64,000 bases of DNA from Actinomyces gerencseriae DSM 6844. Lineage in GTDB: Bacteria; Actinomycetota; Actinomycetes; Actinomycetales; Actinomycetaceae. Every line of letters starts with the position of its first letter. Positions within the stretch are counted from its first letter, which is position 1. Under the pieces are notes generated by a model, which worked only from the letters and a program-made list of their open reading frames with translations, made no database searches and was not told the DNA's origin. Shown here one piece after another: positions 15,163 to 28,346 of the stretch. The position numbers and the translations under genes are program-made. The DNA is taken from NCBI RefSeq assembly GCF_000429265.1, contig NZ_AUBN01000006.1:186001-250000 (forward strand), written 5' to 3'.

Positions 15163-15894
15163 ATGTCGGTGTTCCATCCTTGGGTCCTGGCGACCGTGGC
15201 CGCGTGCTCGGTGGCGCTCGTGGCCGGCCCGGTATCGGCGTGGACGCGCCGTTACGTTCGCGATCCCCTCGGGCACGACGACAGGGGCAGCGGCATCGAC
15301 CGCCCCGAGGACCGAGAGCGCTCCGAATACTCGACGCCGCCCCGCCCCGGCCTTCTGGCCATCGTCCCGCAGAGCCTGCTCTCGCTCGCGCTCTGCGGAT
15401 TCTGCGCGTGGTGGGGCATGACGGCGGACGTCATGGGCGCGGCACTCGTCGCCGTCCCCGTCTACGCCCTGCTGACGAGCGCCGCCTGCGTCGACGCCGT
15501 CGCCCACCTCCTGCCCAACCGCCTCCTGGGGGCGACGGCGGCATGGCTGTCGGCCTGCGGCGTCGTGGCCGTCGTCGCCCATCCCGGGAACGCCCACGCG
15601 GCGATCCGGGCGGGGCTGTGCGCGCTCGGGGCGGGAGCGACCGGCCTGCTGCTCACACTGGCGCCCTCCGGCCTGGGGCTGGGGGATGTCAAGCTCTGCA
15701 CGGTCATCGGTCTCTGGCTGGGCTGGTACGGCGTACTACCGCTCACCCTCGGTCTGTGCGCCGGGGTCGCCCTCGGCGGACTCGCCGCCATTTTTCTTCT
15801 CATCACTCGTCGCGCCGGGCGGAAGGATCCCATGGCCTACGGTCCGCACCTCATCGCGGGCGCCCTGATGAGCTGGCCCCTGGCCGTCGCCTGA
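15163..15894 (+). CDS. Type IV prepilin peptidase (A24 family, Tad pilus)
   Basis: This 243-residue polytopic membrane protein has both catalytic aspartates of the A24 aspartic peptidases: Asp111 in VDAVAHLLPN and Asp175 in the GLGLGDVKL motif. About seven membrane helices surround them. It lacks the N-terminal cysteine-rich methylase domain of PilD, as is usual for TadV/CpaA-type enzymes. It should cleave the prepilin leaders of Flp, the TadE-type proteins and the large pseudopilin encoded downstream, at the cytoplasmic face of the membrane. It follows the DUF192 gene in an operon, and a hairpin at 15925-15960 follows it. Confidence 0.92.
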   Translation: MSVFHPWVLATVAACSVALVAGPVSAWTRRYVRDPLGHDDRGSGIDRPEDRERSEYSTPPRPGLLAIVPQSLLSLALCGFCAWWGMTADVMGAALVAVPVYALLTSAACVDAVAHLLPNRLLGATAAWLSACGVVAVVAHPGNAHAAIRAGLCALGAGATGLLLTLAPSGLGLGDVKLCTVIGLWLGWYGVLPLTLGLCAGVALGGLAAIFLLITRRAGRKDPMAYGPHLIAGALMSWPLAVA

Positions 15895-16332: not shown

Positions 16333-17139
16333 ATGCTTGTGCTCACCGGCTCCCAGTCCCCGGCCGATACGGCCGGCGAGCAGGACGCGCTTCAGGCCAT
16401 CGACGCGCTCGAGGCCCTGGGCCCCGCTCCCGCCCTCCTGCTGTGCCGCGTCGGCGACGACGAGCGCGCTGCCCGGCTGATCCGCGCGGCTCTGAGCCGG
16501 GGCGCGCCGGGTGTACTGCCAGTGGACGAGTCCGAGACCCGCTTCAGGGTGCTCGCCCACTGCCTGCGCCCGCTCAGTCCCCGAGCGCTCGGCCAGGCTC
16601 CGGTCGTCATCGACGCGCTGCGCCCCGTGCTGCGCACCCGTGTCGTGCTCACATCGGTCAGGAGGGTCGCCATCCCCTCCCCGTCCGTCTGGCAGCACGC
16701 GCGAAGCATGCTGCCCGGGGCCCGCTTCGAACTGGATCTGAATCGGAACCGCATCACCAGGATCAGCGGTCCCGCGTGGGTCGCCCCCGCGCCCGGGCGC
16801 ATGGGCGTCTGGGCGGCCGATGACGAGAAGGGGCGGGTCACCGCGGACCTCGCTCGGCTCGGACTCCGCCGCGAACGCCTTCAGCGGGCATCCCGGCGAT
16901 GGCCGGCGAAGGCGTGGGCGGAGATGACGGTGCTCGACGCGGATCCCGCCCCGCTCATCACCGAGGCGCTCGCCCGCGTCGCCCGAACGAGCTGCCCCCG
17001 CTGCGGCCGGATGTCCCTTCCAGCGGGATGCCTCATGTGCGGCACATGGCCGTATGCGGATCCTCCCGGGCCCGCACCGGCTCCCGCACCGCATCCGCAG
17101 CGCCCTCCTCGGCCCCGTCCAGCGAAGGAGATCCGATGA
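16333..17139 (+). CDS. Hypothetical protein with C-terminal zinc ribbon, first gene of the tad operon
   Basis: This 268-residue protein is unfamiliar. The ATG at 16333 has AGGAAG 10 bases upstream; an upstream in-frame ATG at 16201 lies in AT-rich noncoding sequence. There is no signal peptide or membrane helix. Residues 221-236 carry two CxxC pairs (Cys221, Cys224, Cys233, Cys236) separated by eight residues, a typical zinc ribbon, followed by a Pro/Arg tail. The N-terminal two thirds is Arg/Leu/Ala-rich, with alternating short strands and helices that look like a Rossmann-type or receiver-like fold. The stop overlaps the cpaB start (ATGA), so it belongs to the pilus operon, perhaps as a regulator or assembly factor. 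Confidence 0.8.
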   Translation: MLVLTGSQSPADTAGEQDALQAIDALEALGPAPALLLCRVGDDERAARLIRAALSRGAPGVLPVDESETRFRVLAHCLRPLSPRALGQAPVVIDALRPVLRTRVVLTSVRRVAIPSPSVWQHARSMLPGARFELDLNRNRITRISGPAWVAPAPGRMGVWAADDEKGRVTADLARLGLRRERLQRASRRWPAKAWAEMTVLDADPAPLITEALARVARTSCPRCGRMSLPAGCLMCGTWPYADPPGPAPAPAPHPQRPPRPRPAKEIR

Positions 17140-17858
17140 ATCCGCGTCAACGACGAGGAGTTCTGCTCATCCTCGTCACAGTCCTCGGGGCCGTCGTCAC
17201 CTTCGGAGCCGTCTTCAACTACGTCCAGTCCGTCTCCTCGCAGGTCGGCCCCAGGACCACCGTGCTGGAGCTGTCGAAGGATGTGACCGAGCTGCAGGAG
17301 ATCACCGCGGCCGACGTCACCGCCGTGCAGGTGCCCGAGCGCTGGGCCCCGAAGGACGCCGTCCACGACCTGTCCGATGTCCAGGGCGAGGTCGCCGCCG
17401 CCTCCTACCGACGGGGCGCCGTCCTCCAGACCAGCATGCTCCAGGATCCGCCCCAGCTGACCGAGGGCTATCGCGAGGTGACGATCATGGTCGACGCCGA
17501 GACCGGCGTGGCCGGCAGGATCGCATCCGGCTCTCGCGTCGACGTCGTCTCCACCCTGCAGGACCCCGGAACCGATCAGCAGTCCGCTCACGTCATCATC
17601 CAGAACGCGCTCATCACCAACGTCGGTGTCGCCACCACGGTGGAGGACGAGAACTCCTCCGGCGACTTCACCGAGGCGCAAGCCGTGCCCGTGACCTTCG
17701 CCCTCACCCCGGATGACTCGCTCAAGCTCGCCTACGCCGAGAGCTTCTCCAAGAAGGTGCGCCTTCTTCTGCGCCGCGACGGCGACAACGGCTCCGTCGG
17801 CGATCCCGAGTACTCGGCGCCGGCGGGCACCCCCACCACCAACGGAGGTAATCAATGA
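17136..17858 (+). CDS. cpaB: Flp pilus assembly protein CpaB/RcpC
   Basis: This 240-residue protein has an N-terminal membrane helix (about residues 9-30), a SAF domain (residues 45-105, LQEITAADVTAVQVPERWAP) and the RcpC/CpaB domain with YREVTIMVDAETGVAGRI and the GSRVDVVSTL motif. CpaB is the periplasmic or outer-face component of the Tad machine. In Gram-positive bacteria it would sit on the outer face of the membrane. AAGGAG lies 6 bases before the ATG. The gene overlaps its neighbours by four bases on each side (ATGA), indicating tight translational coupling. Confidence 0.93.
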   Translation: MNPRQRRGVLLILVTVLGAVVTFGAVFNYVQSVSSQVGPRTTVLELSKDVTELQEITAADVTAVQVPERWAPKDAVHDLSDVQGEVAAASYRRGAVLQTSMLQDPPQLTEGYREVTIMVDAETGVAGRIASGSRVDVVSTLQDPGTDQQSAHVIIQNALITNVGVATTVEDENSSGDFTEAQAVPVTFALTPDDSLKLAYAESFSKKVRLLLRRDGDNGSVGDPEYSAPAGTPTTNGGNQ

Positions 17859-19417
17859 CACAGTACGTGTTGACCGACGACGAACAGGTCCGCATCCAGG
17901 TCACCGCCGCCATCGCGGAGGCGGAAGGCCTCGGCGAGGTCGTGGCCGTGGACTCCCCCGACCGCCTGCGCGAGTCCCTGCGCGCCGGCAGCGCGTCCTG
18001 CGTCCTCGTGGACGAGGCTCTCGGGGGCGTCTCCGCTCTGGCCGTCACGCAGGAGATCTCCCGCTCCCATCCGCTCACCCCGGTCGTCCTGCTCTCCCGC
18101 GGCCGGAGCGTCGAGGTTCTCACCGCCGCCATGGACGCGGGAGCGCGCACCGTGCTCGCCGTACCGCTCTCCCTGGAGGAGCTGAACAGTCGTCTCCAAC
18201 CGGTCCTGGCCTGGTCGCAGGCGGTCCGCAACGAGGCGGGCTCCCACGACGATCCCGGCGCTCACCGCCCCGGCAGCGTCACCGCCATCGTCGGAGCCAA
18301 GGGCGGCGTCGGCGCCTCCACCGTCGCGCTCATGACCGCGGCCCAGCTGGCGCGGCGCACCCGCACCTGCCTGGTGGACCTCGACGTGCGCGGAGGAGAT
18401 CTCGCCGCCATGACGGGTCTGTCCGCGCGACGCTCGATCGCGGACCTGGTGGACATCGCCGCGGAGGCGAGCTCCCGGGAACTCTCGGAGGTCATGTACC
18501 CGCTGCCGGGCGGAATCGCCCTGCTGCCCGCACCGGATCATGGCGAGATGGGCGAGGCGGTGACCGAGACCGCCACCCGCCAGGTCATCTCCGTGCTGCG
18601 CTATCAGTTCGACCACGTCGTCCTCGACTGCGGCGGGCGCCTGGACGACGTCCTGGCGATGGCGCTCGACTCGGCCGATCGGGTCCTCATCGTGGCGACT
18701 CCCGACACCCCGGCCGTGCGCTCCGTGCGGCGGCTGACGGACGCGCTCCACCGGCTCGGCATCGCCCACGGGCGCTCCATGGGCCTCATCGTCAATCGCA
18801 GTGGCCGCCGGCGCGAGATTCAGCCCAGGACGGCGGCGAAAATGGCGGCGGTTCCGCTGATCGTCAGCATCCCGGACCTGACGACGCGAATGGAGATGAC
18901 GGTCAACTCGAACGCGCTGCTCACGACGGAGGTGCCGCCCCTGGCCAAGGCCGTGCGCTCCATCACGGGCACGATCCTGGCCGGGCGGGCAGGCGCATCG
19001 ACGTCGCCCCCGCCCGAGCCGGAGGACGAGGCCCGGTCGTCGCCCCGACGGCGCAGAGGAGGAAAGGGGAGGCACTGGCGCGAGCGCTCCGACAAGGGCC
19101 AGGTCACGGTGGAGTTCCCCGTGGTCTTCGCCCTCGCCACAGCAGCGCTCCTTCTGTGCGTGCAGCTCCTCGGCTACGGGATCTCCTCCATGCTCGCCAA
19201 CAACGCCGCCGAGGAGGCGGCTCGCGACTACGGCATCGGCATGAGCGCCGAGGAGGTCCGCCGGGACGTCGCCGATCATCTTCCCGATGCGTACGACTCG
19301 AGCATGACCATCACTCGGCACCCCGACGACACGGTCACCGTCGCCCTGCCGGTGCCCTCCGTCGTCGAGCTCCGCACGTCCGCCGAGGCCGGGATCGTCC
19401 GGGAGGGGCGATCATGA
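17855..19417 (+). CDS. cpaE: CpaE-type pilus ATPase fused to a TadE-like pseudopilin
   Basis: This is one 520-residue frame with two parts. Residues 1-125 form a degenerate receiver-like domain. Residues 140-380 form a MinD/ParA-type ATPase with deviant Walker A KGGVGAST (Lys149), as in CpaE/TadZ, the polar localisation factor of Tad pili. After a Pro/Glu and Arg-rich linker, residues 414-520 are TadE-like: DKGQVTVEFPVVFALATAAL with the class III prepilin motif (Gly415, then Gln416 at +1 and Glu420 at +5), a membrane helix and a short outer domain. No in-frame start codon lies near the junction, but an AGGAGG at 19057-19062 is placed where a separate tadE would be expected to have its ribosome binding site. 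Peptidase cleavage after Gly415 could release the pseudopilin. A sequencing error is possible but unlikely, as both parts are in one clean frame. Confidence 0.88.
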   Translation: MTQYVLTDDEQVRIQVTAAIAEAEGLGEVVAVDSPDRLRESLRAGSASCVLVDEALGGVSALAVTQEISRSHPLTPVVLLSRGRSVEVLTAAMDAGARTVLAVPLSLEELNSRLQPVLAWSQAVRNEAGSHDDPGAHRPGSVTAIVGAKGGVGASTVALMTAAQLARRTRTCLVDLDVRGGDLAAMTGLSARRSIADLVDIAAEASSRELSEVMYPLPGGIALLPAPDHGEMGEAVTETATRQVISVLRYQFDHVVLDCGGRLDDVLAMALDSADRVLIVATPDTPAVRSVRRLTDALHRLGIAHGRSMGLIVNRSGRRREIQPRTAAKMAAVPLIVSIPDLTTRMEMTVNSNALLTTEVPPLAKAVRSITGTILAGRAGASTSPPPEPEDEARSSPRRRRGGKGRHWRERSDKGQVTVEFPVVFALATAALLLCVQLLGYGISSMLANNAAEEAARDYGIGMSAEEVRRDVADHLPDAYDSSMTITRHPDDTVTVALPVPSVVELRTSAEAGIVREGRS

Positions 19418-19791
19418 CCGCCCCGTCATCGCAACGCCTGCTGCACGGGCTGCGCCGCGTCGAGCGCGGCGCCCTCGACATCGAGCTCGCCGGCTTCATC
19501 CCGGTCCTGCTCGTCGTCCTGCTTCTCCTCCTTCAAGGCTTCCTGGCCATCTCCACCGTGACCTCCACGAGCGCGGCCGCCCGCGACGGCGCTCGCGCCG
19601 CCATGCTCGGGCGATCCGCCACGGCCGCCGCGGAGCGGTCCCTGCCGGACTGGGTCGCGCTCGAGTCGGTCACGGACAGCTGCGGTTCGGAGCACTGCGT
19701 GCGGGTGACGGCACGGGTTCCGATCGGCCTGCCGGCCTTCACCACCAGGCACGTCACCGTGACGCGAACGGCCTACTTCCCGGAGGACTGA
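19414..19791 (+). CDS. tadE: TadE-like pseudopilin
   Basis: This 125-residue protein has a short basic leader ending ERG, cleavable after Gly19, then ALDIELAGFIPVLLVVLLLL with Glu24 at +5 of the mature form and one membrane helix. A Ser/Ala-rich SAAARDGARAA segment follows, typical of TadE/TadF proteins, and then a small outer domain with two cysteines (CGSEHC). The ATG overlaps the stop of the upstream gene (ATGA). It is probably the partner minor pilin of the TadE domain fused to CpaE, and it should be processed by the peptidase encoded at 15163. Confidence 0.85.
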   Translation: MTAPSSQRLLHGLRRVERGALDIELAGFIPVLLVVLLLLLQGFLAISTVTSTSAAARDGARAAMLGRSATAAAERSLPDWVALESVTDSCGSEHCVRVTARVPIGLPAFTTRHVTVTRTAYFPED

Positions 19792-19792
19792 C

Positions 19793-21094
19793 ATGGCGCT
19801 GAGAGATCGCACGGCCTCGCCCGCCGCAGGAGGGCATCCGGTGGCGAACAGCAGGGAGGAGCTCGTCACCCGGTATCGGGCCCGTCTGCTGGAGGAGGTC
19901 GACCTGGAGGAGGTGGCCGGGCTCGATCTCCCCCAGCAGCGAGCGCGGCTGGAGCGAATGCTCTCCCGGCTCCTGTCCCTGGAGGGGCCGGTCATGTCGC
20001 CCCGGGAAAGAACGTGGCTCATCACACGGATCGTCGATGACGCCGTCGGCCTCGGTGTGCTCGAGCCTCTGGTGGCGGACCGCAGTGTCACCGAGATCAT
20101 GGTCAATGGCGCGGACGACGTCTTCGTGGAGCGCGCCGGCAGGATCGAGCGGGTCCCCACCCGGTTCGCCTCCGAGGCGGATCTCTACCGGCTCATCGAC
20201 CGCGTCGTCTCCTCGGTCAATCGCCGTGTGGATGAGTCGAGCCCCATGGTGGACGCCCGCCTGCCCGGGGGCGAACGCGTCAACGTCATCATCCCGCCAC
20301 TCGCCCTGGACGGGCCGACGATCACGATCCGCCGCTTCCCCCAACCCTTCCACCTCGCGGATCTCGTGGCTCGCCGCAGCCTGCCTCAGCAGGCCGCGGA
20401 TCTTCTCGGCGCCCTGGTGGCGGCGAGGCTCAGCATTCTCATCTCGGGCGGAACCGGTTCCGGCAAGACCACCTTCCTCAACGCCCTCTCCGGCACGATC
20501 CCGGAGCACGAGCGCATCATCACCATCGAGGACGCCGCCGAGCTCTCGCTGCAGCAGCCCCACGTGGTGCGTCTGGAGGCGCGCCCTGCCAACATCGAGG
20601 GACGCGGTCAGATCGCCATACGCGACCTGGTGCGCAACTCCCTGCGCATGCGTCCGGATCGGATCATCGTCGGAGAGGTTCGCGGAGGTGAGACCCTGGA
20701 CATGCTCCAGGCCATGAACACCGGGCACGAGGGCTCGCTCACCACGGTGCACGCGAACTCCCCGGTGGACGCGCTCAGTCGTCTGGAGACACTCGCCTCG
20801 ATGTCGGACGTCGCCCTCCCGGTGGAGACCGTGCGCGACCAGATCAACGGCGCCATCGACGTCATCGTCCAGCTGGAGAGGGACTCCTCGGGGGTGCGCC
20901 GGGTCAGCGGCATCGACGCGGTCACGTCGCAGCGTCGAGAGGCGTATGCGACGTGCCCGATCCTGCACTACGTCCGTGCGACTCGCCGTGGCGAGGGGAG
21001 CTTCGAGTTCGGCGGGATCCCGGGAGCCATGGCACGACGAGTACTCCAGCACGGCCAGTCGCTCCCGGAGGGGCTGACGGGAGCAGCAGCATGA
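19793..21094 (+). CDS. cpaF: Tad pilus assembly/secretion ATPase CpaF (TadA)
   Basis: This 433-residue hexameric traffic ATPase powers Flp pilus polymerisation from the cytoplasmic face. It shows the N-terminal helical domain, a linker with [15 protein letters not shown], Walker [11 protein letters not shown] (Lys225, Thr226), an Asp/Glu box ([10 protein letters not shown]), Walker B ([16 protein letters not shown]) and the His box [14 protein letters not shown]. All are intact and the length is normal. It starts one base after the tadE stop and overlaps tadB by four bases. Confidence 0.96.
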
Positions 21095-22017
21095 ACGGCA
21101 TCGGGGTCATCCTCCTCAGCACAGCGGTGACGATCGCCGCCGGCGCCGCCGCGGTGCTGTCATTGGGGACCGGCGCTGAGCGCGCCGCTCGGGTCGCGCA
21201 GAGCCTGGGGGCGGCGGAGAGCTCCCGTCGAACCAGGCCGACGGGCCTCCTCCTGGCACCGCTGCGGCGGTCGCCCCTCGGCCGCGCGCTCCGCAAACGG
21301 CTCACCGGGGCCGGACTCGACTGGGATCCGGCGGGCACCGAGCTGATCCTCGCAGCCGGCATCATCATCGTGTTCCTGGGAACGCGTCCGTTCATCGGAC
21401 GGATCGCGGGCGGCGTCCTGGCGGCCGCAGTGCCGCTCGCCTTCTCCCGGTGGATGCAGCGCCGCGCGGCCCGGCGAACCGAGCACTTCATCGCCCAGCT
21501 CCCGGATGTCTCCCGGCTCCTGTCCAACGGCACCTCGGCGGGAATGTCCGTGGAACGGGCCCTCGGAATGGCGGCGGCGGAGGTTCCGGAGCCCGCGAGG
21601 ACGGAGCTGAGTCGAGTGGTCGCCCAGCTCGGACTGGGATGGGCGCTGGACGCCTCCCTGACCGACCTCTCGGAGCGGATGCCCTCGCGCGAGCTCGACG
21701 TCCTCGTGCGCACCATCATCATTCAGTCCAGGTCCGGCGGCACCCTGGTCGCCGCCCTGCAGGAGATCGCCTTCGCCCTCGAGGACCGCAAGCAACTGCA
21801 CCGCGAAGTGCGCACCGCGATTCTCGGCTCGGCGGTCAGCGGCTACATCGTTCCCGTCATGGGCGTGGGGTGCGTCGTACTCCTCAATCTCATGAAACCG
21901 GGCGTCCTCGACGACATGGCCTCCTCCCTCATCGGTCGCCTCGTCCTGCTGGCCGCCCTCATCTTCTTCGGACTCGGCGCCCTGCTCATCAAGACCGTCT
22001 CACGGGTGGAGGTGTGA
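21091..22017 (+). CDS. tadB: Tad pilus platform protein TadB
   Basis: This 308-residue inner-membrane platform protein has the type II secretion GspF-like core. An N-terminal helix, a pair of central helices (about residues 85-120), the cytoplasmic FIAQLPDVSRLLSNGTSAG segment and two C-terminal helices (SGYIVPVMGVGCVVLLNL and RLVLLAALIFFGLGALL) are visible. TadB and TadC form the membrane platform turned by CpaF. The ATG overlaps the cpaF stop (ATGA), and tadC starts one base after its stop. Confidence 0.93.
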   Translation: MNGIGVILLSTAVTIAAGAAAVLSLGTGAERAARVAQSLGAAESSRRTRPTGLLLAPLRRSPLGRALRKRLTGAGLDWDPAGTELILAAGIIIVFLGTRPFIGRIAGGVLAAAVPLAFSRWMQRRAARRTEHFIAQLPDVSRLLSNGTSAGMSVERALGMAAAEVPEPARTELSRVVAQLGLGWALDASLTDLSERMPSRELDVLVRTIIIQSRSGGTLVAALQEIAFALEDRKQLHREVRTAILGSAVSGYIVPVMGVGCVVLLNLMKPGVLDDMASSLIGRLVLLAALIFFGLGALLIKTVSRVEV

Positions 22018-22018
22018 C

Positions 22019-22945
22019 ATGGTCGCCCTCGGCGCGGGCCTCCTCGCCGCGTGCTTCGTGCTCGCGGTCGCCAACGGCATTCGAATGATCCGGGATGACG
22101 GCACGGGGCACATGGCCGGTCCCGCGACCGAAACCGGCGGGACGGGCGGAACGGATGAGTCGGTCGGGACCGACGCGCACCGACGCGAGGGCGTCTTCGT
22201 CAGGTTCATCGACGCCCTGGGGCTGCGGGGGCAGCAGGTGCTTCGCCGTCTCTACGGGCCGGTGCGCCTGAGCACGCTCAACCAGCGGCTCAGGAGCGCC
22301 GGCAACCCGGAGGGCCTGCATCTCGACCTGTTCATTCAGCGCGAAGCGGGTTTCGTCCTGCTCAGCACGGGCCTGCTGCTCGTCTTCGTCCTGCTGGACC
22401 AGCCGGTCCTCGGAGTCGTGATCGCCATCATCTTCTCAGGATGGATGCAGCTGTGGCTCGCCCAGTCTCTTCGCGGCCGGCAGAGGAGGATCAACCAGGA
22501 CCTGCCCGACTTCCTCGACATCCTCGCGGTCGCCGTCCGTTCCGGACTCCCGTTTCGAAACGCGCTGGAGCGCGTCTGCGAGCGCTTCGAGGGACCGGTG
22601 TCCGAGGAGATGACCACCGCTCTCCACGAGATGCGTCTGGGGGTATCCCGGCGAGACGCCTTCTCCGCGGTCAGGAGGCGGAGCCGCTCGGACAGCATCG
22701 ACACCTTCGTCACGGCCCTCCTCCAGTCCGAGGAACTGGGGACCCCGATCGGCGACGCCCTGCAGGCGATCGTCAAGGAGATCAGACGCGAACGCGCCGA
22801 GCAGGTGCGCCGTGATGCCGCCAAGGCCTCGCCGAAGGTCTCGCTCGTCGCCACGATGACCATGCTGCCGGGCACGATCATCCTCATGACGGGCGGCATG
22901 CTGTACGCCAATCGAGACGTCTTCGCCCGCATCTTCGGTGGTTGA
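22019..22945 (+). CDS. tadC: Tad pilus platform protein TadC
   Basis: This 308-residue protein is the second GspF-like platform subunit. After an N-terminal helix and a Gly/Thr-rich loop, the core shows two helices around residues 115-150, the QDLPDFLDILAVAVRSGLPF motif, EELGTPIGDALQAIVKEIRR, and the C-terminal helix starting SLVATMTMLPGTIILMTGG. This matches TadC in length and motifs. It is encoded directly after tadB and just before the sensor kinase gene. Confidence 0.93.
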   Translation: MVALGAGLLAACFVLAVANGIRMIRDDGTGHMAGPATETGGTGGTDESVGTDAHRREGVFVRFIDALGLRGQQVLRRLYGPVRLSTLNQRLRSAGNPEGLHLDLFIQREAGFVLLSTGLLLVFVLLDQPVLGVVIAIIFSGWMQLWLAQSLRGRQRRINQDLPDFLDILAVAVRSGLPFRNALERVCERFEGPVSEEMTTALHEMRLGVSRRDAFSAVRRRSRSDSIDTFVTALLQSEELGTPIGDALQAIVKEIRRERAEQVRRDAAKASPKVSLVATMTMLPGTIILMTGGMLYANRDVFARIFGG

Positions 22946-22947
22946 CG

Positions 22948-24183
22948 ATGACGTCTCAGACAACGATCGTCCGGCCGCCCCTGGCGCAGGAGATACGGGA
23001 CCGCAGCATGTCCGGTGCCGTAGGACTCATCTGCGACGTGAGGCTGGGCATCCTGCTCACCTGCGAACTGATTCTCATAACGAACGGCACCTCGATCCCG
23101 TCGATCGTCTCCCTCTTCGTGACGATGAGTCTGAGCTGGATACTGCTGCGAACCGTACGGCGAGCCCCGGCCGTGGCCAGCTGGGGCCGGCTCTTCCCCT
23201 GCACGGACCTCATCGTCACCGGAGCGCTCGTCTTCACCCTGTCCGACGCCTTCAACGGCGCATACGCGCTGACCATCGCCTACATCCTGACCTCCGCGCT
23301 GCTGATCGGCATCATCACGAGCGCGGCCTGGGCCGCCGTGTGGACGACCGGCATCCTGACCATTCTCATCACGATGAGGCCGAGCCACGCGCCGCTCCCG
23401 TCGGCGATCTCGATCATCTCGATCCTCGGCATCGCAGCGGGCGTCCTCCTCGGCAATCGTCTGTTCGTCCAGCTCCAGGAGGTCGGCAGGCTCACCGCCG
23501 AGGCCGCCGCCGCCCGTGCCGAGGAGCGCGCTCTCACCGAGCGCCTGACGATCGCCCGGGACCTCCACGACTCGCTGGCGAAGAGCATCCACGGCATCAG
23601 AATGCTCGCCGAGACCCTCGACGACTCGCTGCGCACGACGAATCATGAGGACGCCGTTCTCAGCCGCACCCTCTTCGAGTCGGCGGACGAGGCCAGCCGG
23701 GAGGCTCGCCTGGTCCTGGACGGCCTGCGGATCAGCGGCGAGAACGACGCCGTGGGAGCCCTCGCCGAAGAGGTCGCGCGCTGGAGCGCCCGAACCGGCA
23801 TTGCAGCGATCCGCGCCGACTCCGAGTCGGCACCGCGCCTGCCGTGCTCGCCGGAGGCGATGTGGCAGCTCCAGCGCGTGCTCGGAGAGGCGCTCACCAA
23901 TATCGAGAAGCACGCCCGGGCCACCACGATGCGCTTCTCCGCCCGAACGGAGGGGGACCGGCTGCGCATGGAGATCAGCGACGACGGCATCGGACTCGAC
24001 ACGGACGGCGGTGAGCCCCTCCTTCCCGAGGGGCACTACGGCCTCACGGGGATGCGTGAGCGCGCCGAGGTCCTCGGCGCCGAGCTGAGCATCGAGTCGC
24101 ACCCGGAGCCCGGCATCGGACTGCGGACACGGCTGCTCGTCCCACTGACATCGCTGACGACCACCCGGGAGGCACGAACGTGA
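22948..24183 (+). CDS. Sensor histidine kinase (NarX/HisKA_3 type)
   Basis: This 411-residue sensor has about six membrane helices in its first 180 residues and almost no extracellular loop, so it probably senses a membrane or intramembrane signal. The dimerisation/phosphoacceptor motif is ARDLHDSLAKSIHG with His207. The ATPase domain has the N box (EALTNIEKHARAT), DDGIGLD and GHYGLTGMRERAEVLGAEL. I use the ATG at 22948; a TTG six bases earlier overlaps the tadC stop. It overlaps the response regulator by four bases (GTGA). Its place inside the pilus locus suggests control of pilus genes. Confidence 0.93.
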   Translation: MTSQTTIVRPPLAQEIRDRSMSGAVGLICDVRLGILLTCELILITNGTSIPSIVSLFVTMSLSWILLRTVRRAPAVASWGRLFPCTDLIVTGALVFTLSDAFNGAYALTIAYILTSALLIGIITSAAWAAVWTTGILTILITMRPSHAPLPSAISIISILGIAAGVLLGNRLFVQLQEVGRLTAEAAAARAEERALTERLTIARDLHDSLAKSIHGIRMLAETLDDSLRTTNHEDAVLSRTLFESADEASREARLVLDGLRISGENDAVGALAEEVARWSARTGIAAIRADSESAPRLPCSPEAMWQLQRVLGEALTNIEKHARATTMRFSARTEGDRLRMEISDDGIGLDTDGGEPLLPEGHYGLTGMRERAEVLGAELSIESHPEPGIGLRTRLLVPLTSLTTTREART

Positions 24184-24803
24184 AGATCATGATCGTGGAT
24201 GACAACGCCATCGTGCGCGCGGGTCTTCGAGCGGTGCTGACGCGGGTGGACTCGGTGACGGAGGTGGTCGAGGCCGAGGACGCCTTCGCGGCCCTGGAGA
24301 CAGCCACCGCCGAGTCGCCGGAGATCGTCCTGCTGGACATCTCGATGCCAGGGCGCAGCGGCCTGGACATCCTCCCCGAGCTCGTCGATCGCATGTCCGT
24401 CATCATGCTCACGTCATTGAAGGATCCGGCGCTGATCCGCCGGGCGATCGACGCCGGCGCACGCGGGTACCTGGTGCACGGCCAGCTGGGCGTCAACGAG
24501 GTCGCCGGAGCCATCGAGACCTGTCGGCACGGCGGACTCGTCCTCGGCCGGGAGGCGGCCGAGGTCGTGCTCCACCCCTCCGAGGCCGACCGCCCCAACC
24601 CCCTGCGCGAGCACCTGACCGAGCGCGAGGCCGAGATCCTCGACCTCGCGGCCGGGGGCCTGTCGAATGCGGAGATCGCGTCCCGGCTGTACCTGTCCGA
24701 GCGGACCGTCAAGAACTATCTCAATGCCGCCTATCCCAAGATCGACGTCCACAACCGGGCCGAGGCGGTCTCCGCCTGGCTGGGGCGGAATCAAGGGCGC
24801 TGA
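24180..24803 (+). CDS. NarL/LuxR-family response regulator
   Basis: This 207-residue regulator has a receiver domain (acidic pair Asp7-Asp8, phosphoacceptor Asp53 in LLDISMPG) and a C-terminal LuxR-type helix-turn-helix (LTEREAEILDLAAGGLSNAE, then IASRLYLSERTVKNYL). It starts with a GTG that overlaps the kinase stop, so the pair is translationally coupled. It lies directly upstream of the flp pilin gene, which is separated by a hairpin, and is the likely regulator of flp or of the whole operon. Confidence 0.94.
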   Translation: MKIMIVDDNAIVRAGLRAVLTRVDSVTEVVEAEDAFAALETATAESPEIVLLDISMPGRSGLDILPELVDRMSVIMLTSLKDPALIRRAIDAGARGYLVHGQLGVNEVAGAIETCRHGGLVLGREAAEVVLHPSEADRPNPLREHLTEREAEILDLAAGGLSNAEIASRLYLSERTVKNYLNAAYPKIDVHNRAEAVSAWLGRNQGR

Positions 24804-24835: not shown

Positions 24836-24909
24836 GGCCCGCCTACTTTTCATTCCGTCAGCAGGACGCAGCCGGCCCTCCGGCTCCATCCCATCACACG
24901 GAGGTCATG

Positions 24910-25143
24910 ATGAACAACAACTCCCTGCTCCGCCTTCAGGTCCGCATTCAGCAGGCGTGGACCGACCTGCGCGACAGCGAGCGCGGTCAGACGATGGTCG
25001 AGTACGCGGGCATCGGCCTGGTCGTCGTCGCCATCGTCGCGGCCGCGGCCGCGGCCGTGAGCGGGAAGGACAAGTCCATCGGAGAAGCGATCACGGGAAA
25101 GATCTCGCAGATCATCGGGTCGATCAAGACAGGCGGGAAATGA
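24910..25143 (+). CDS. flp: Flp-family major pilin
   Basis: This 77-residue prepilin has a 26-residue leader ending SERG, cleavage expected between Gly26 and Gln27, then the Flp signature QTMVEYAGIGLVVVAIVAAA (Glu31 and Tyr32 at +5 and +6) and a short Lys/Gly-rich tail. It is the only small Flp protein in the window and should be the main filament subunit. Two ATG codons lie in tandem (24907 and 24910). The second has the better spacing (5 bases) from GGAGG. A stem-loop at 25175-25213 follows, as expected for a highly expressed single-gene transcript. Confidence 0.95.
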   Translation: MNNNSLLRLQVRIQQAWTDLRDSERGQTMVEYAGIGLVVVAIVAAAAAAVSGKDKSIGEAITGKISQIIGSIKTGGK

Positions 25144-25313: not shown

Positions 25314-25985
25314 ATGATGAAACACCATCCGGCGCCGGCGAACGGCGCGCACTCCCACCGGACCCGCGAGGACGAGCGGGGCAGCATCTCCCCCTATCTC
25401 TGCATCGCCTCCGGACTTCTCACCATGGTCGCGCTGCTCGTCATGCTCAGCCTGGGCGACGCCACCCTTCACCGGCGGGACGCGAGCAATGCGGCGGACT
25501 CCGCCGCGCTGGCCGCGGCCGGCGCCTGGGCCGACTCCATCGAGTCGGCGTACGACGACGCCGTCGGCGCCGGCAACGCGGACGACCTGTGGGGCGGGGT
25601 CGGGAACGGCGTGGGATCGTACGCGGGGCCGAAGGCGAGAAGAGCGGCGGAGACGTACGCCTCGCGCAACGGGGCCACGGTCACCGCGTACTCCGTCGAT
25701 GCGACCAGGAGAACCATCACCGTCGCCGTGGAGACGAACTCCGCCGTCGAGGGCGTCGACGAGAGGATGACCGCCGAGTCGACCGCGGAGATCGTCCTCG
25801 GGAACGGCGTCTGCCTCAAGGGCGGCAAGATCGGATTCACGATGGACGGCCGGTGCGTCGCCAAGCGCCCCGATGAGGATCCCGCGCCCGAGTCCACCCC
25901 CTCGCCCTCCCCGACCACCGCCCCGTTCAAGGTGCCCGACGGCATGAGCGAGCACGCGAGGGTCACCACCAGACTGGTGTCCTGA
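25314..25985 (+). CDS. TadG-like (TadE/G) pilus-associated protein
   Basis: This 223-residue protein begins with a His-rich cytoplasmic stretch, then DERGSISPYLCIASGLLTMV and a membrane helix. The RRDASNAADSAALAAAGAWA segment that marks TadE/G-like proteins follows. The residue at +5 after ERG is Tyr rather than Glu, so peptidase processing is uncertain. The outer part has two cysteines, CLKGGKIGFTMDGRC, and a Pro/Ser/Thr-rich region near the end. It is probably a pilus-associated surface or minor pilin protein. Tandem ATG codons at 25314 and 25317 make the exact start ambiguous by one residue. Confidence 0.8.
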   Translation: MMKHHPAPANGAHSHRTREDERGSISPYLCIASGLLTMVALLVMLSLGDATLHRRDASNAADSAALAAAGAWADSIESAYDDAVGAGNADDLWGGVGNGVGSYAGPKARRAAETYASRNGATVTAYSVDATRRTITVAVETNSAVEGVDERMTAESTAEIVLGNGVCLKGGKIGFTMDGRCVAKRPDEDPAPESTPSPSPTTAPFKVPDGMSEHARVTTRLVS

Positions 25986-26819: not shown

Positions 26820-28346
26820 ATGAGCCCTCGCAGGAAATCGCTGCAGCACGAGCACGGGCAGACGCTCACCGAGCACGCCGGGATCGGACTGGTCGTCGTC
26901 GTTCTGATCCTGGTGGTCGCGGGCGGAATCACCGTGGCCTCCGGGGACGGAATCGGCCAGGCCATCGTCTGCAAGATCGCTCAGCAGATCCGCTCCGTCG
27001 CCGGGGGATCGTACGAGTGCCCCTCGAGCAGCAATCCCTATGCCGCGAATCCCGCTGCGGTTCCCTCGAAGGTCCAGGAGACCACTAAGTCGACGTCCGC
27101 GGGCGTGGAGCTGATCAAGGTGACCGGCAACGTGAGCGATGGCTCCTCGGTCAGGAGGACGACGTACGCCGACGGCTCCGGCAGCCGTCAGTACAGCAAG
27201 ACGATAGAAGGATCCGTGGGCTACTCCCTCGGCACAGGCCATTCGAAGAAGAAGGAGAAGGCCGCGGAGAAAAATGGAGAAAAATCCGGAGACGGTGAGA
27301 AGACCGAGAAGAAGGGCGATGGAGACCCCTTCAAAGTCTCCCTCGAAGGCTCGGTGAAGGCATCCGGAACCATCACGACAACACAGACCTATAAATGCGA
27401 CACCCCTCGCCACATCTCGTGCTCCGAATTCGACAAGCAGAATCGGGCCGCAACCAAGGAACGACTCCGCGACCAGGGGATAGGGCGCTTCAGAAGCGGC
27501 GACAAGACCATCAAGCAGACTCCCGACACCACCTCCAGGGCCTGGAACGTCAAACTGTCCCTCAAGGCCGGCGCCAGCATCAGTGCCGGAGTGAAGAAGA
27601 ACGACAAGCACAAGAGCAAGAACGAGAAGAGCGAGAAGGAGAAGAAAGACGAGTCGAGTAAGAAGAAGAAAAAGAAAAAGGACAAGACGAGCGCCGCAGC
27701 CCAGAGCGGCATCAACATATCCGGAGAGGCCGGCTACACCAACACCTCCACGACCAATGCGGATGGCAGCACCAGCAGGTCGCACAGGTTCGCCTACAAG
27801 GGCACGATCGATGCCGCGGACGAGATCTTCGGCATCGAGGGCGGGGCCGATGACAGTTACTTCGGCAGCTACGAGGTGACCTACGACGGGGACGGCAAGC
27901 TCAAGACCGTGACGTTCACCAGCGTCCGGGAGGGCGAGGCCTCCGCCTCCAAGAATAAGGAGCACGGGAAGAAAGGAGCGGGAGGATCGGCGACCACGAC
28001 GATCACGACCACGCTGGACGTGTCCCAGTTGAGCCCGGAGGACCGTGCGATCGCGGAGCGCTACGCCTCCTCCTCCTTCACCAACGGAGCGCTCATCGTC
28101 CCACCCTCGTCCCTCAAGCCGTCGAGCCCGTCCGACGACGACTTCGACAACCTGCTCTACCGGCAGGCGCGGACGACCCGGGTCGTCCAGAACGGCAAGA
28201 CGGTCACCAAGGAAGGAGGATGGGATCTCTGGCTCATCAAGTACAAGACGGAGTCCACCACCTCCACGCAGGACACGATCAGCTCCCAGCACCTGGGCAG
28301 GCCCGGGCAGGACGGTGAACGGGTCTACGAGGACGACACGGAGTAG
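26820..28346 (+). CDS. Large Flp-like pseudopilin with Lys-rich outer domain
   Basis: This 508-residue protein begins MSPRRKSLQHEHGQTLTEH, close to the Flp signature of the 77-residue pilin. Cleavage would fall after Gly13, with Glu18 at +5 and His19 in place of Tyr at +6, followed by the helix AGIGLVVVVLILVVAGG. AAGGAG lies 6 bases before the ATG. The other 460 residues are a secreted region of Thr/Ser-rich beta-type repeats broken by two highly charged Lys/Glu tracts (about residues 140-165 and 260-290, the latter a run of Lys). Four cysteines are present. Family members normally have 60-80 residues, so this may be a tip or adhesive subunit. No known domain was recognised in the outer part. 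Confidence 0.8.
   Translation: MSPRRKSLQHEHGQTLTEHAGIGLVVVVLILVVAGGITVASGDGIGQAIVCKIAQQIRSVAGGSYECPSSSNPYAANPAAVPSKVQETTKSTSAGVELIKVTGNVSDGSSVRRTTYADGSGSRQYSKTIEGSVGYSLGTGHSKKKEKAAEKNGEKSGDGEKTEKKGDGDPFKVSLEGSVKASGTITTTQTYKCDTPRHISCSEFDKQNRAATKERLRDQGIGRFRSGDKTIKQTPDTTSRAWNVKLSLKAGASISAGVKKNDKHKSKNEKSEKEKKDESSKKKKKKKDKTSAAAQSGINISGEAGYTNTSTTNADGSTSRSHRFAYKGTIDAADEIFGIEGGADDSYFGSYEVTYDGDGKLKTVTFTSVREGEASASKNKEHGKKGAGGSATTTITTTLDVSQLSPEDRAIAERYASSSFTNGALIVPPSSLKPSSPSDDDFDNLLYRQARTTRVVQNGKTVTKEGGWDLWLIKYKTESTTSTQDTISSQHLGRPGQDGERVYEDDTE

Follow-up and report, generated by a model that had tools for sequence, protein, structure and literature searches.

A CpaE/TadZ-type protein and a TadE pseudopilin share one reading frame in Actinomyces gerencseriae and are joined at a conserved class III prepilin site

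The tad locus of Actinomyces gerencseriae DSM 6844 raises the question of how two proteins of pilus assembly are supplied from a single gene. In the literature on Tad pili, as far as the parts available to us go, TadZ and TadE are listed as separate proteins, whereas here they occupy one frame. In the 64,000-nucleotide stretch of genomic DNA analyzed in this study (the window, to which all positions refer), a single open frame of 520 codons (17855–19417, plus strand) runs from the ATG at 17855 to the TGA at 19415–19417. The original prediction had held that this frame encodes CpaE and TadE joined at a prepilin cleavage site. The joint reading frame was borne out, because its 520 codons are uninterrupted and homologs are fused likewise. 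Along the frame, the CpaE/TadZ-type protein is followed by a variable linker and then by the TadE pseudopilin, which starts from the class III site. No good start codon lies between the two proteins, as would befit a polyprotein, and the existence of split orthologs suggests that two products would be made.

The N-terminal part (approximately residues 1–374; 17855–18976, plus strand) matches PF00072, PF13614, and PF10609 over the cut-offs. The first of these, Response_reg, covers residues 6–114, and the second, the MinD/ParA-like AAA_31, covers residues 142–299. A receiver-like domain followed by a MinD/ParA-like domain, encoded in a tad locus, is what this part shares with CpaE/TadZ of the Tad pili of A. 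actinomycetemcomitans, B. breve, and Caulobacter, from which it differs in carrying TadE and in its P-loop. The score with TIGR03815, the equivalog model of actinobacterial Ssd, is 75 bits against a cut-off of 154, which suggests that the CpaE part represents a related but different subfamily. The P-loop, GAKGGVGAST (18293–18322), lacks the second MinD-type lysine, which is replaced by Thr, Ala, Ser, or Val in all of the 43 fused loci described below. Active MinD-type ATPases have a deviant Walker A motif with both lysines. Because the second one is missing, MinD-like ATPase activity of CpaE is doubtful; the name "ATPase" in the original prediction has thus become uncertain, and the protein, judging from its motif, may not hydrolyze ATP as MinD does.

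The C-terminal part (residues 416–520; 19100–19414, plus strand) would be a mature TadE pseudopilin. The TadE profile PF07811 aligns with residues 415–457 over all of its positions (1–43 of 43), yet it scores 16.6 bits against a cut-off of 22.9, and the 22.2 bits obtained for the fusion in the genome search are also below that cut-off. The assignment is based on a G/x4E site (the slash marks the cut) and one strongly hydrophobic stretch after it, which, together with a small C-terminal part, are also found in the TadE/TadF minor pilins processed by TadV. Among the members of alignment A1, 17 of 27 match PF07811 at E-values up to 0.05, and the profile is present on the listed Streptomyces relatives. 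The proposed division into CpaE (residues 1–413) and TadE (residues 414–520) holds as a two-part layout, but the conserved CpaE sequence ends at approximately residue 375, as judged by eye from A1, and is followed by a linker rich in Arg, Ala, Pro, and Gly (residues 375–414; 18977–19096, plus strand), which was delimited from A1, charge, composition, and lengths.

The genes surrounding the frame, all on the plus strand where a strand was assigned, are those of a tad locus. Upstream lie a prepilin peptidase gene, discussed below, and cpaB/rcpC (17136–17858; TIGR03177, 102 bits with a cut-off of 71; PF16976). The fusion gene overlaps through ATGA with a gene for a second TadE-like minor pilin (19414–19791; PF07811 over the cut-off; site ERG/ALDIE), which is followed by the motor ATPase gene tadA (19793–21094; PF00437; TIGR03819, 341 bits, below the cut-off of 373) and the platform protein genes tadB (21049–22017) and tadC (22019–22945), both matching PF00482. 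Two frames named by eye as a histidine kinase (22942–24183) and a response regulator (24180–24803) separate tadC from the gene of a Flp-like pilin (24907–25143; site SERG/QTMVE), which has CGGAGG upstream of its start and matches PF04964 weakly (E 0.12, below the cut-off), and a TadG-like protein is encoded at 25314–25985 (PF13400 over the cut-off). Farther downstream, a 508-residue protein (26820–28346, plus strand) begins like a Flp pilin (HEHG/QTLTEHAGIGLVVVVLILVVAGG) and continues with approximately 450 residues rich in Lys, Thr, and Ser, including a run of seven lysines; its only Pfam match has an E-value of 0.62, and it is possibly a giant pilin or a tip protein.

The fusion is not a local oddity. 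When the locus was aligned with other loci, as the original prediction had proposed, both fused and separate genes were found: of the 52 loci of this CpaE subfamily that could be read, 43 carry the fusion and 9 have cpaE and tadE as distinct genes that adjoin or overlap, a total that leans on Actinomycetaceae because this family was sampled most. Within Actinomycetaceae (loci L001 and L005–L031, from 213 genomes), 27 of 28 are fused and one, L028, is split, while the 24 loci outside the family comprise 16 fused and 8 split. A search of 149 genomes at the level of the order, with L017 as the query and E-values up to 1.4e-46, gave 12 further places, all outside the family, of which 10 are fused, one (L042) is split, and one (L048) is cut by a contig end; that of 118 genomes at the level of the class, with E-values up to 7.3e-42, gave 13 more, 6 fused and 7 split. 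The states of L042 (split) and L049 (fused) were assigned by reading, and one relative, L034 of A. massiliensis, came from a scan of genome contigs. The counts exclude other ParA-like genes (L002–L004), a 96-residue match (L032), L048, weaker matches that are unfused where read (L033 and L050–L058, of which L050–L058 are unfused), weak matches (L072–L076, with L072 and L076 not read through), a second match in genome G057 with an internal TGA, and weaker matches without loci. Although 97 plasmid records match, none of them covers 80% of the query.

The nine split loci have a stop codon and a start at the seam, a condition that the original prediction had named as refuting. They are orthologs in other lineages, and the fusion in the window stands beside them; their existence does indicate that some lineages do without the fusion. 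The start codon of their tadE lies in the interval from 14 nucleotides upstream to 6 nucleotides downstream of the first base of the CpaE stop codon. Counted from the nearest in-frame start, the leaders of the split TadE proteins are 13–23 residues long in eight of the nine (13, 15, 15, 15, 16, 16, 21, and 23), and that of L061 is 56 residues long. Both arrangements even occur in one genus, with L061, L063, L064, and L067 split and L062, L066, and L069 fused; the genus is recognized by a code common to L061–L064, L066, L067, and L069 and is identified as Streptomyces by L062, which is identical to a protein of Streptomyces fructofermentans.

The history of the two arrangements was traced with IQ-TREE on the CpaE part alone, in a tree of 56 rows including the outgroup-type L050, L053, L055, and L057, which form a separate clade. 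The fused and split labels change 4 times on this tree, or 5 times with the outgroup as a third state; without the long branches L028, L040, and L055, the changes number 3, or 4 with the outgroup taken as split. Since fused lineages branch deepest inside the subfamily, the history is read most simply as a single early fusion and several later splits, and the fused form is likely the older state, on a tree whose base is poorly resolved and which carries long-branch warnings for L040 and L055 and odd composition in L028 and L044. The distance matrices of CpaE and TadE over the 52 loci correlate with r = 0.892, a value reached in none of 2000 permutations (the best gave 0.155), which indicates that split and fused TadEs are of the same lineage; only in L028 and L042 do the nearest neighbors by CpaE and by TadE differ in part.

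The seam itself is a class III prepilin site, Gly415/Gln416-Val-Thr-Val-Glu420 (19097–19114, plus strand), supported by alignments A1 and A2 and by the fused loci. The codons of Gly415, Gln416, and Glu420 at +5 occupy 19097–19099, 19100–19102, and 19112–19114, respectively, so that the motif named in the original prediction is intact. Gly at −1 and Glu at +5 are kept in 43 of 43 fused loci, a figure partly due to construction, since fused loci were found with a pattern demanding G-x4-E; the subfamily loci without the pattern were all read, and none of them was a fusion lacking the Gly, since they proved to be split, truncated at a contig end (L048), or overlooked on other grounds (L049). The site is invariant in A1, and Gly415, Gln416, and Glu420 are invariant in A2, which consists of 38 database proteins hand-picked from 194, that of the window included. 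The motif pattern is found in 192 of those 194; one of the two others, P0045, retains the site but has an incomplete hydrophobic stretch, and the second is P0047, a chimera-like record of 408 residues. P0047 is also the sole exception among the 314 database proteins from three protein searches, again with that of the window included, since G-x4-E lies at the junction in 313. Among the best 120 of 2960 Streptomyces proteins listed, all 120 have the same site. The protein lists, which held the best 120 of 352, 530, and 2960 matches and consist mostly of close copies, were used only for motif counts and names.

The surroundings of the site also look like those of a prepilin. The 12 positions ahead of Gly are all variable in the 43 fused loci (entropy 1.3–3.1 bits), and the most constrained of them, two residues ahead of Gly, is always E, D, or Q. 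Both the Flp-like pilin and the second TadE of the window locus also have E two residues before the cut, so the seam resembles the ordinary peptidase substrates of the locus. The net charge of the last 30 residues before the seam has a median of +5 and ranges from −1 to +12 over the 43 loci. The hydropathy of the fusion in the window peaks at 2.36 in a segment beginning 6 residues past Gly415, and in all fused loci the strongest hydropathy window begins 2–15 residues past Gly, although stretches of CpaE are fairly hydrophobic too (up to 1.96; the TadE stretch has a median of 2.44). Taken together, the class III site, the largely basic residues before it, and the hydrophobic window after Gly suggest that CpaE would be cytoplasmic and that Gly would lie at the inner face of the membrane.

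A candidate for the cutting enzyme is encoded in the same locus, as had been proposed. The frame at 15163–15894 (plus strand) begins with the ATG at 15163, matches the prepilin peptidase profile PF01478 over the cut-off on 15256–15894, and is of the TadV/CpaA type by its location; it contains Asp in the contexts VDAVAHLLPN and GLGDVK, which we take to be the catalytic aspartates. Maturation of TadE by TadV was reportedly described by Tomich in 2006. In a survey confined to Actinomycetaceae, PF01478 was matched over the cut-off in all 27 genomes besides that of the window, 26 with a fused and one with a split locus. Of the 26 fused genomes, 18 have a single match; a peptidase lies on the same contig within 30 kb of the fusion in 18 as well, and none is so near in the other 8. 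The genome of the window has two prepilin peptidases, the second at C3:7041–7391, and further TadE-like matches over the cut-off at G000:C2:60643–60771 and G000:C9:133292–133420, which together suggest another pilus or secretion locus.

Two rival explanations were considered at this point. One is that an error of sequencing or assembly merged two genes; the junction is GC-rich and nothing was found in favor of an error, which the identical fusion in 43 loci, with the seam in 313 of 314 database proteins, refutes, leaving its probability next to nil. The other is that a separate TadE is also translated from an internal start in the linker, whose length varies about tenfold across the fused loci and reaches about 120, 152, and 242 residues in the fused relatives L021, L025, and L047. 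In the window, the nearest upstream in-frame ATG, GTG, or TTG is a GTG 48 codons ahead of Gly415, with a Shine-Dalgarno energy of −1.5 kcal/mol compared with −10.8 at the cpaE start, and the next in-frame start codon is the GTG of Val419, past the cut; the proposal that no start codon lies near the junction is therefore upheld. Shine-Dalgarno scoring of the 27 fused loci of Actinomycetaceae gave a median of −1.7 kcal/mol for in-frame ATG, GTG, and TTG codons up to 80 codons before Gly (n = 90), which is weaker than both the cpaE starts (−8.0) and internal codons elsewhere (−2.8, n = 403). Six of these 27 loci have no such codon within 51 codons of Gly, the number in the last 51 codons (41) is close to that expected (39), and no conserved internal start with a ribosome-binding site was found across them. 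In L007, L008, L019, and L026, however, a GTG or TTG among the last 51 codons before Gly scores between −7.6 and −11.1 kcal/mol, as true starts do, and moderate candidates exist in L021 (ATG 8 codons before Gly, −6.6) and in L011 and L012 (ATG 47 codons before, −6.4). An extra internal product may thus exist in these single loci, but the candidates lie at differing places, and internal initiation seems a very improbable source of TadE in general. The AGGAGG at 19057–19062 (plus strand), which had been regarded as a possible relic of a ribosome-binding site, lies within Arg and Gly codons. GGAGG occurs in the last 75 nucleotides before Gly in 12 of the 43 fused loci, compared with 10.1 expected from codon usage, and AGGAGG occurs in 4 of 43. 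Its chance at the window locus alone is 0.027, which is slightly unusual, and there is no pattern across the loci. Given the codon-usage frequency of GGAGG and the fused state as the likely older one, the relic interpretation was rejected.

We consider it probable, on this comparative evidence, that the frame encodes a two-product precursor from which the prepilin peptidase would free CpaE and mature TadE by cutting after Gly415. CpaE would fold in the cytoplasm and the TadE helix would insert with its N-terminus inside, which would bring the scissile Gly415 to the cytoplasmic side of the membrane. The cut would leave a basic tail at the C-terminus of CpaE and free a mature TadE, which could join the other minor pilins in pilus initiation. 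Before the cut, the pilin would be tethered to the positioning protein, giving equal amounts of the two and placing the pilus-starting subunit at the hub. If the fusion remained uncut, Gly at −1 would be free to drift, and its retention amid a variable flank favors cutting, while the interchange of fused and split forms is expected if both arrangements give the same products. On the other side stand a leader of approximately 400 residues, the below-cut-off score of TadE in the window, and the 8 of 26 fused genomes without a peptidase within 30 kb. Prepilin leaders span 6–51 residues according to the part of a review seen by us (PMC6916266), and the 415-residue leader proposed originally, while ending in Gly as they do, lies far beyond that range; the polyprotein with such a leader nevertheless agrees better with the comparative evidence than the rival readings do. 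Leaders are described in another review (PMC10191384) as sitting in the cytoplasm, positioned for the peptidase.

A stable fusion, in which the uncut TadE helix would serve as a membrane anchor for CpaE as a structural hub, has a parallel in the merger of PilM and PilN in C. difficile (PMC6916266, seen in part), but it appears unlikely in view of the conserved Gly and retained site context, the 3–4 natural changes between fused and split forms with orthologous TadE, and the presence of a peptidase in 27 of 27 genomes. Cutting might also be partial or timed, with tethered and cut forms both functional and a checkpoint that would free the starter pilin only at the assembled hub. The site evidence speaks for timed cutting as it does for complete cutting, and the fact that 43 of 52 loci stay fused despite several splits hints at a use for the tether; yet the tether is dispensable in the genus identified as Streptomyces, which has both arrangements, and we regard such a checkpoint as rather improbable.

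Fusions of pilus assembly proteins have precedents. PilM-PilN of the C. difficile type IVa pili likewise joins two assembly proteins in one, with no pilin or peptidase site mentioned in what we saw of the source (PMC6916266). The TadB-TadC fusion of Micrococcus luteus tad-2 also lies inside an actinobacterial tad locus, while it joins two platform proteins in an organism without TadZ, and no cleavage site is mentioned in the parts consulted (PMC4322843). TadE/TadF minor pilins differ from the fusion in that a whole 415-residue protein stands as the leader here, compared with 13–23 residues in eight of the nine split orthologs. Annotated database proteins of Streptomyces and Actinomyces have both domains and the same fusion. 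The names of the best 120 of 2960 Streptomyces records include AAA family ATPase, CpaE family protein, pilus assembly protein CpaE, septum formation initiator, MinD/ParA family protein, and hypothetical protein, and one A. naeslundii record among the best 120 of 352 listed is named "pilus assembly protein TadE"; none of the names of both-domain proteins among the matches listed mentions cutting. A literature search, with most subscription papers outside it, found no title or abstract opening that dealt with CpaE/TadZ fused to TadE or with polyproteins of a prepilin peptidase. The fusion is thus visible in databases but, as far as seen, undiscussed in the literature.

If the cut after Gly415 does take place, the leaders tolerated by prepilin peptidases would extend to approximately 8 times the maximum of the 6–51 residues given in the review (PMC6916266), and these enzymes would be the proteases that process a bacterial polyprotein, an unusual strategy in bacteria. 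According to a published proposal (PMC12075869), Tad pilus assembly is started by a tip complex of the minor pilins TadEFG. Natural test pairs come from the single genus, taken to be Streptomyces from L062, in which both arrangements occur. On balance, we lean toward the wider view that in many Actinomycetes the prepilin peptidase may serve as a polyprotein-processing protease whose "leader" is a folded protein of 400 residues, so that CpaE and TadE would be released 1:1 and the uncut form would place the start of the pilus at the hub.
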